Positions 7,448 to 8,418 of a stretch of DNA of 8,564 nucleotides are shown one piece after another. Source of the DNA: an uncultured Collinsella sp. GTDB lineage: Bacteria; Actinomycetota; Coriobacteriia; Coriobacteriales; Coriobacteriaceae. Position 1 is the stretch's first letter; every line of letters starts with the position of its first letter. The translations under genes were made by a program, and so were the position numbers. The stretch spans positions 1 through 8,564 of the forward strand of contig UROJ01000061.1 in NCBI GenBank assembly GCA_900549335.1, written 5' to 3'. The notes beneath the pieces are model-generated. The model had not been told where the DNA came from. It made no database searches and was given only the letters and a program-made list of their open reading frames with translations.

Positions 7448-7467
7448 TTTCTGGCATATGCCAGAAA
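7448..7467. promoter_or_regulatory. Upstream operator-like palindrome (TGGCATATGCCAG)
   Basis: A perfect 20-base palindrome: the arm TTTCTGGCAT (7448-7457) is followed directly by its complement. It lies just upstream of the predicted -35 of the DUF134 gene. Its core, TGGCATATGCCAG at 7452-7464, differs from the second palindrome at 7505-7517 in two of 13 bases, both symmetry-preserving R/Y changes. A repeated symmetric site of this kind is typical of a dimeric helix-turn-helix regulator. Confidence 0.72.
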
Positions 7468-7471
7468 TTCC

Positions 7472-7499
7472 TTGCACAAATCAGCGCGTTCGCTATTCT
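7472..7499 (+). promoter_or_regulatory. Promoter of the DUF134-NifX gene
   Basis: TTGCAC (7472-7477) and TATTCT (7494-7499) are separated by 16 bases and resemble a sigma-70 -35/-10 pair. The predicted transcription start, at about 7505-7507, falls at the beginning of the second palindrome. The promoter is therefore bracketed by the two operator-like sites. Confidence 0.55.
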
Positions 7500-7504
7500 A
7501 TTGT

Positions 7505-7516
7505 TGACATATGTCA
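7505..7516. promoter_or_regulatory. Downstream operator-like palindrome (TGACATATGTCA)
   Basis: A perfect 12-base palindrome located at the expected transcription start, with its last base 14 bases before the ATG at 7531. It shares the core TGRCATATGYCAG with the palindrome at 7448-7467; the centres are 53 bases apart, close to five turns of B-DNA. The spacing would place both sites on one face of the helix and allow a repressor to occlude the promoter between them. The strong AAGGAGG ribosome binding site starts five bases further downstream. Confidence 0.7.
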
Positions 7517-7530
7517 GATAAGGAGGACAC

Positions 7531-8295
7531 ATGGCAGGAAGACGCGAGAAACTGCGCCGCGTCGGGATCATCCCCGAATACCGCGGCTTCACCCCCGACG
7601 GCCTTGCCAGCGGAGACGCCATCGATATGACGGTCGACGAGCTCGAGGTGCTGCGCCTGTGCGACCTGGAAGGCCTCAATCAGGAGGCCGTCGCCCAGCA
7701 CATGGGCATTGCCCGTGCCACGGTGGCGGCTATTTGCAGCCGAGCGCATCGCAAGGTGGCAAACGCGTTGGTCAATGGTCGGGCGCTCATCATCGAAGGC
7801 GGTAATATCGCGTACTCCCCCATCACCACAACGACGGCCGTATGGCCAGCAAAGGAGATCGGCACCATGAGGGTGGCAACCACGTACGACAACGGCAACA
7901 TCTTTATGCACTTTGGCCGCAGCGAGCAGTTCAAGATCTACGACATTCAGGACGGCAAGGTACTCAACGAGCAGGTCGTGGGCACCGGCGGCACCGGCCA
8001 CGGTGCCCTTGCGGGCCTGCTCGCCAACGGCGGCGTGGACACGCTCATCTGCGGCGGCATCGGCGGTGGCGCTATCAATGCGCTTGCCCAAGCCGGCATC
8101 ACGGTATACGCAGGTGCCCAGGGCAGCTGCGACGCTTGCGTCGAGGCCCTTATCGCCGGCACGCTCGCCCAGAACGGCGAGGCCACGTGCGGCTGCCACG
8201 GCCACGACCACGAGCACACCCACGAGCATGGCGATTCCTGCGGCTGTCACGGCCATCACGAGCACGAGGGCCGCGAGGGCTGCGGCTGCCACTAG
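7531..8295 (+). CDS. DUF134 helix-turn-helix protein fused to a NifX/NifB-type cofactor-binding domain with a Cys/His-rich tail
   Basis: A 254-residue protein with three parts. Residues 1-95 match DUF134, a predicted DNA-binding family: RRVGIIPEYRGFTP, DMTVDELEVLRLCDLEGLNQEAVAQHMGIARATVAAI (helix-turn-helix about 48-74) and ALIIEGGN. Residues 113-212 match the dinitrogenase iron-molybdenum cofactor (NifX/NafY/NifB C-terminal) fold: VATTYDN, HFGRSEQFKIYDI, ICGGIGGGAINAL and GITVYAGAQGSCDACVEALI. Residues 220-254 form a tail with three CGCH repeats and alternating His/acidic residues (6 Cys and 11 His in 35 residues), which looks made for metal binding. The start follows AAGGAGG. No nitrogenase gene is in the window. 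The inferred role is a metal or cluster sensor that binds the twin palindromes upstream and controls its own gene, and perhaps others. The two-domain pairing occurs in other anaerobes; the function is unproven. It is divergent from thyA. Confidence 0.88.
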   Translation: MAGRREKLRRVGIIPEYRGFTPDGLASGDAIDMTVDELEVLRLCDLEGLNQEAVAQHMGIARATVAAICSRAHRKVANALVNGRALIIEGGNIAYSPITTTTAVWPAKEIGTMRVATTYDNGNIFMHFGRSEQFKIYDIQDGKVLNEQVVGTGGTGHGALAGLLANGGVDTLICGGIGGGAINALAQAGITVYAGAQGSCDACVEALIAGTLAQNGEATCGCHGHDHEHTHEHGDSCGCHGHHEHEGREGCGCH

Positions 8296-8358
8296 CGGCA
8301 CGGCACCGCGAGCTCGGGACGAGACGCTGAACGCAACCCAATAATCAAAGCCAACAAC

Positions 8359-8390
8359 AAAGGCCACCCGGTAGCTTCCGAGTGGCCTTT
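8359..8390. terminator. Bidirectional terminator between the DUF134 gene and ffh
   Basis: A 13-base-pair stem (8359-8371 and 8378-8390) with the 6-base loop TAGCTT and arms ending AAAGGCCAC / GTGGCCTTT. On the plus strand one position is a C-A mismatch, while in the minus-strand RNA it is a G-U wobble, so the stem is stronger for the minus-strand transcript. Minus-strand reading also runs into TTTGTTGTTGG. It most likely ends the ffh transcript and also serves the convergent DUF134 gene 64 bases upstream. Confidence 0.8.
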
Positions 8391-8418
8391 GCCATATCAA
8401 GCTGGAATTACAGCTCTA

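Follow-up and report, generated by a model that had tools for sequence, protein, structure and literature searches.

NifX and NafY are cofactor carriers and are not known as regulators. Here we analyse a gene of an uncultured Collinsella sp. whose predicted product differs from the Nitro_FeMo-Co/NifX, NafY and ORP-type proteins (PF02579) by fusion to a DNA-binding domain, DUF134, and by a His/Cys tail, together with two palindromes lying on either side of its predicted promoter. The stretch of DNA analysed, hereafter the window, comprises 8,564 nt of contig UROJ01000061.1, and coordinates are window positions. The DUF134 family (PF02001; PRK04217) is annotated as of unknown function; for it we predict an operator, a recognition rule and a regulon. 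As far as the excerpts of these papers go, one DUF134 protein and one DUF5320 protein of Methanosarcina mazei have been listed among proteins 'without any known function' that may carry a quadruplex-binding motif (PMC7565180), DUF134 is named as a whole word in PMC8347963 and UPF0251 appears in a mutation table in PMC5886521. The literature found through the terms DUF134, UPF0251, PF02001/COG1342, DUF5320 and NifX, partly as excerpts and mostly outside subscription journals, describes no function of DUF134; excerpts found on the operator sequence concerned only E. coli motif-model work.

CATATG palindromes upstream of DUF134 genes

The two palindromes are CATATG-centred sites likely bound, as a dimer, by the DUF134 protein encoded directly downstream. 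On comparative sequence evidence, we consider it highly probable that the protein would thereby block its own promoter, a case of negative autoregulation. The features concerned are the following.

7448..7467, no strand: predicted distal operator, a perfect 20-nt palindrome TTTCTGGCATATGCCAGAAA with core TGGCATATGCCA at 7452-7463, centred at about -49 relative to the predicted start
7472..7477, plus strand: predicted -35 box TTGCAC, from sequence, under the consensus threshold; 92% mean conservation, TTGCGC in many relatives
7494..7499, plus strand: predicted -10 box TATTCT, from sequence; 94% mean conservation
7505..7516, no strand: predicted proximal operator, a 12-nt palindrome TGACATATGTCA over the predicted transcription start, at about +5
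7520..7526, plus strand: likely ribosome-binding site AAGGAGG, from sequence
7531..8295, plus strand: gene for the 254-residue DUF134 + Nitro_FeMo-Co protein (PF02001 and PF02579 matches)
7633..7776, plus strand: helix-turn-helix, residues 35-82, with modelled helices 35-46 and 51-58 and recognition helix 62-82
7867..8160, plus strand: NifX/ORP-type cofactor domain, residues 113-210, from domain match and model
8188..8292, plus strand: His/Cys-rich C-terminal tail from residue 220, of low model confidence, likely metal-binding

The protein matches DUF134 (PF02001) over residues 3-93 (E 2.8e-21, 76.3 bits against a curated cut-off of 27) and Nitro_FeMo-Co (PF02579) over residues 121-208 (E 3.5e-21, above the curated cut-off and with a NifX/ORP-like fold). 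The NCBIfam model PRK04217 ('hypothetical protein') is matched below its cut-off (69 versus 115 bits).

The preliminary description of this DNA had reported palindromes of 20 and 12 bases with centres 53 bp apart and, between them, TTGCAC and TATTCT; all are present in the sequence as stated, the two hexamers being separated by a 16-bp spacer. Given the size and composition of the window, about 0.011 perfect palindromes of at least 20 nt are expected, and 7448-7467 is the sole one. Those of at least 12 nt are frequent by chance (about 2.4 expected, 6 listed), so the short palindrome at 7505-7516 counts only through its likeness to the long one and its conservation. Because a simple promoter scan of the window found no promoter over the consensus threshold, the promoter between the palindromes has to be called weak. 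The second palindrome does cover the predicted start, as had been described, the transcription start being itself a prediction; overlap with the promoter core would be confined to the proximal site.

Conservation was assessed on 20 distinct Collinsella 95-mers, the window included and the divergent locus L084 excluded. The majority base reaches on average 97.5% in the distal core and 99.2% in the proximal core, against 79% in the remaining spacer and 81% in the leader. The proximal core is exactly TGACATATGTCA in 18 of the 20, while the distal core reads TGACATATGCCA in 14, TGGCATATGCCA in 4 and other forms in 2, with CATATG at its centre in 19 and CATGTG in one. A perfectly symmetric distal core is therefore the minority state: the earlier remark that both differences between the palindromes keep the symmetry holds in the window strain, but is partly an accident of that strain, since only 4 of the 20 95-mers share the feature. 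A scan upstream of DUF134 orthologs, which the preliminary description had proposed with non-conservation counting against it, found the sites conserved in Collinsella and recurring in other clades.

In a protein search, the window protein was 93-96% identical over at least 237 residues to 20 Collinsella loci, and DUF134 exceeds the Pfam cut-off in 23 of 43 Collinsella genomes. Exact TGRCATATGYCA sites number 44 across these 43 genomes, 38 at a DUF134 promoter and 6 elsewhere; the 23 DUF134-bearing genomes hold 41 of them (the 38 plus 3 elsewhere) and the 20 genomes without DUF134 only 3 in all. At least one exact site stands at the DUF134 promoter in 22 of the 23 bearing genomes, the exception (G004, locus L090) having two sites with one mismatch each. 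The nearest compared genome (G001, sharing 45% of sampled 31-mers with the window) contains exactly two sites, both at the DUF134 promoter. All 6 off-promoter sites fall within open frames of at least 289 codons. An exact search of the 43 genus genomes thus yielded no non-coding site besides the DUF134 promoter, and the predicted Collinsella regulon is a single promoter. Within the genus, the DUF134 gene of L084 (minus strand, 61% identity) is the most diverged; it seems to be frame-broken in its cofactor domain, yet both operators are intact. None of the 55 other family and order genomes examined has DUF134 over the cut-off, against 23 of 43 in the genus, a distribution that suggests acquisition or repeated loss.

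For the family at large, we assembled 193 distinct DUF134 genes, each with 90 nt or more of upstream sequence, from protein-search, PF02001-search and genus loci. The PF02001 search covered 341 genomes from the class of one Clostridiales metagenome-assembled genome (that of L024); DUF134 was over the cut-off in 130 of them, and 130 loci (30 + 100) were used, taken mostly in rank order among the matches listed. CATATG is found in the 120 nt preceding 111 of the 193 genes (24/24 in Collinsella, 87/169 elsewhere), or of 70 of 114 after clustering at 75% identity. Over the same genes, 20 shuffles gave a mean of 19.75 and a maximum of 25, the interval from -360 to -240 gave 9 of 190, the inside of the gene 3 of 193, and the runner-up among all 64 palindromic hexamers reached 38. 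Outside Collinsella, the site accompanies 45 of 50 genes in which DUF134 is fused with the cofactor domain, 19 of 35 that encode DUF134 alone and are followed by a cofactor-domain gene in the available sequence, and 23 of 84 others. Of the non-Collinsella genes, 82 lack a near CATATG; eleven of them have TTGACATATG farther upstream (1/82 in a downstream control), and in nine of these eleven a second CATATG follows shortly after within the stretch examined. Similar sites recur in loci of Clostridia and Spirochaetes whose proteins are 39-52% identical to that of the window. In a second sample, 20 genomes that we chose from the non-Collinsella DUF134 loci, 24 of 40 exact TGRCATATGYCA sites stand at the DUF134 promoter (15/20 genomes; 16/20 have any site); among the other 16, the 15 examined (all but G115:C90) comprise 13 in open frames of at least 100 codons and two outside (L166, L174). 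A check for archaeal DUF134 operators covered one genome, which held no DUF134.

Site position and direction of control

The position of the sites was compared with predicted promoters. Among the TTGACA-containing sites, 39 of 47 are followed at 16-18 bp by a -10-like hexamer, against 27.6% at random positions; with a -10 at the right distance, the -35 box lies within such a site. When the gene-nearest site is placed against the predicted +1, 45 of 66 clusters have it at 0 to +18, 19 have it over the -35 box (about -28) and 2 have it elsewhere, these 66 being drawn from the 70 clusters of the covariation analysis described below (the other 4 lacked a promoter of sufficient score). As TTGACA is part of the site, the -28 group arises in part by construction, and the random-position control is therefore the fairer test. 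Because a protein sitting over +1 or -35 would block polymerase, these positions argue for repression, and binding is predicted to lower transcription. Promoter occlusion, raised as a possibility in the preliminary description, agrees with this geometry. The proximal dimer would cover the start site, and the distal dimer would lie over the -35 in many Clostridia and just upstream of it in Collinsella.

The opposite effect, in which the DUF134 protein activates its own promoter through a distal dimer at about -49 that recruits polymerase, would suit the window itself, where the promoter is weak and the distal site lies upstream of the -35. We nevertheless regard activation as unlikely: in the great majority of TTGACA sites counted above it is the site that holds the -35, and in most clusters the predicted +1 is covered by the gene-nearest site or lies just before it.

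A GC-rich inverted repeat, AAAGGCCACCCGGTAGCTTCCGAGTGGCCTTT, was noticed by eye at 8358-8392, between the DUF134 gene and the end of the window, and is possibly a terminator.

Predicted recognition of the sites, and the neighbouring thyA gene

In an AlphaFold2 model of the window protein, residue 67 falls in the third helix (62-82) of the helix-turn-helix, in a block with a predicted local distance difference test score of 94. This helix-turn-helix, putatively of the sigma-region-4 kind, would read the half-sites, which often resemble the -35 hexamer TTGACA. We compared the three flank bases of 143 half-sites from 70 clusters with the columns of the protein, leaving out left halves that read TTGA because the -35 box could fix them. 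Residue 67 and the outermost base covary with 0.80 bits and a z-score of 11.5, the second highest; the top score, 13.0, links residue 69 with the next base, and scores of 6.6 to 8.5 are found as well for columns 38, 44, 52 and 86, which lie outside the helix. Arg67 goes with an outermost G (31/40 half-sites), Glu67 with C (14/17) and Ala, Gly, Ser, Gln or Met67 with T (59/77); Lys67 shows T in 4 of 6 and Asp67 C in 2 of 3. The pairings of Arg with G and of Glu with C agree with textbook contact preferences. The window protein, with Ala67 and T at the outer position, is in line with the rule.

For residues 63, 66, 67 and 69, we controlled for descent by shuffling flanks within clades defined without the helix, in six partitions of 1 to 15 clades. 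Residue 67 retained p 0.001 in all six partitions, whereas, once clades were used, residue 63 gave p 0.012 to 0.108, residue 66 p 0.024 to 0.686 and the signal of residue 69 was lost. Covariation at 63, 66 and 69, strong when uncontrolled, thus weakens or vanishes, and we claim no rule for these positions. The covariation at residue 67 is the best evidence, on a comparative basis, for direct reading of the site by the DUF134 domain. That some other regulator binds the palindromes while the DUF134 domain targets something else could draw on the 82 of 169 non-Collinsella genes with no CATATG nearby; it is improbable, however, as the sites track the DUF134 gene across the genus and the outer base covaries with a residue of the DUF134 recognition helix, which would not be expected of a third protein.

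The neighbouring gene has an even weaker claim. thyA lies next to the DUF134 gene in divergent orientation in 23 of 24 de-duplicated genus loci (L084 being the exception), and the preliminary description had suggested that the upstream site may also act on it. Yet in one group of genomes (L001, L006, L009, L016 and relatives) the segment from thyA to the operators is replaced by other sequence of another length with the operator-promoter block kept, and L084 retains both sites with no thyA found within 1,497 nt upstream. Since the operators persist where the leader has been exchanged or thyA is not found, the sites go with the DUF134 gene; ownership of the distal palindrome by thyA is very improbable, and we rejected its control of that gene.

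The looping between the two sites that the preliminary description had also allowed fared no better. Among the clusters with two sites, 29 of 31 have CATATG centres 18-41 bp apart; the 53-bp spacing is that of the main Collinsella cluster (22/22 entries with two such sites), and L084 has 54. For a DNA loop, a separation of 53 bp would be short. In an informal look at helical phasing, 53 and 32-34 bp come close to whole turns and 27-29 and 37-41 do not. As clusters outside Collinsella have either two sites 18-41 bp apart or a single site, nothing requires a loop, and looping was rejected.

Chance likeness or the shared ancestry of close strains, for which the expected number of short palindromes and the close kinship of most Collinsella loci might speak, is hardly credible and is refuted by the comparison, because similar sites obeying the residue-base rule accompany the 39-52% identical proteins of Clostridia and Spirochaetes. 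The core of the preliminary description, that the palindromes are DUF134's own operators in a self-contained circuit, is in turn strongly supported by the conservation of the sites, their co-occurrence with the gene, the residue-67 covariation and the finding of no other non-coding sites in the genus.

Candidate targets and relation to known systems

The Arg67-class operator TGTGCATATGCACA has 16 occurrences, spread over 14 of the 341 genomes of the PF02001 search. Eight are DUF134 promoters, with 18-23 nt from the palindrome to the start of the domain. At two further places the operator stands 53 and 55 nt ahead of stand-alone Nitro_FeMo-Co-type genes whose products carry short His/Cys tails (one of these products was checked with Pfam); the genomes concerned also hold an Arg67-class DUF134. 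The remaining 6 precede neither kind of gene: 2 are in open frames of more than 100 codons, five belong to genomes without a DUF134 match and one to a genome with a differently classed DUF134 (G289). The Glu67-class operator CGNCATATGNCGGAAA was sought in 12 genomes and found at 6 places in 5 of them, 7 having no exact match. Five of the places are DUF134 promoters. The sixth (L295, site at 1501) has a promoter-like context but is not directly followed by DUF134 or any other clear gene.

The sequence TTGACATATGTCAGAA occurs at 10 places in 9 of the 341 genomes, all 9 of which carry DUF134. Four places are promoters of fused DUF134 genes (G231 twice, G101 and G275). In L304 it lies 353 nt before a DUF134 gene that is followed by an Mrp-like gene; in L306 and L307 it precedes DUF5320-like genes that stand before DUF134, with an Mrp-type gene following in L307, and in L305 it precedes a DUF5320 gene. 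Twin CATATG sites recur in L304-L307. In the near-identical loci L302 and L303 (site at 1501), a B12-binding radical SAM gene begins 48 nt after it and, on this sequence evidence, may be an additional DUF134 target. The DUF5320 proteins of L305 and L307, the Mrp-type protein of L307 (PF10609) and the L302 protein were checked with Pfam; the genes of L304 and L306 are named by likeness.

Because the same operators precede genes for Nitro_FeMo-Co, DUF5320 and Mrp-type Fe-S carrier proteins in some relatives, the DUF134 regulon is probably an anaerobic metal-cofactor carrier module, which would be compressed in Collinsella to one self-repressing gene. The His/Cys tail of the window protein likely binds metal, and cofactor sensing is plausible from its domain content. 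A metal or metal-sulfur cofactor on the NifX-type domain and tail would alter DNA affinity, so that carrier supply would track demand. Taking these elements together, we lean, by a narrow balance, towards DUF134 as a widespread class of cofactor-sensing repressors of anaerobes: a captured sigma-region-4 domain reading palindromes of -35-like half-sites by a one-residue code (at position 67, Arg selects G, Glu selects C and small residues select T), either fused with a NifX/ORP-type carrier or wired to one, controlling Mrp/DUF5320/Nitro_FeMo-Co trafficking and sensing the cofactor carried. This would give a family of unknown function its first probable job, with a testable function, operator and recognition rule, and may show how anaerobes, including gut bacteria, adjust a carrier system for Fe-S or Mo cofactors that is still poorly understood. 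In Collinsella the fused gene offers a compact case: a single promoter drives a single chain that is likely sensor, carrier and repressor at once, a layout that makes ligand and binding directly testable.

The predicted architecture, an autorepressor, is a known one; the domain pairing, the recognition rule and the probable regulon were found described nowhere in the literature searched. As far as the excerpts of that paper go, MrpORP of Desulfovibrio shares the Di-Nase domain and is also a two-domain protein, but carries a P-loop nucleoside triphosphatase (NTPase) where the window protein has a helix-turn-helix (PMC6345978). Against the MrpORP model NF041136, the window protein scores 72.6 bits for a cut-off of 450, over profile positions 262-364 only, and is not classed as MrpORP. 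An Mrp-type NTPase gene does follow DUF134 in two Clostridia loci (L304 and L307). Compared with sigma factor region 4, the reader of the -35, the window protein, in which no sigma region 2 was found, likely binds palindromes as a dimer and would block initiation rather than build it. Fur, IscR and CsoR are metal- or cluster-sensing autorepressors whose folds differ from that of the DUF134 protein; the predicted DUF134 system resembles them in placing operators over the promoter core and in linking the DNA-binding domain to one associated with metal.
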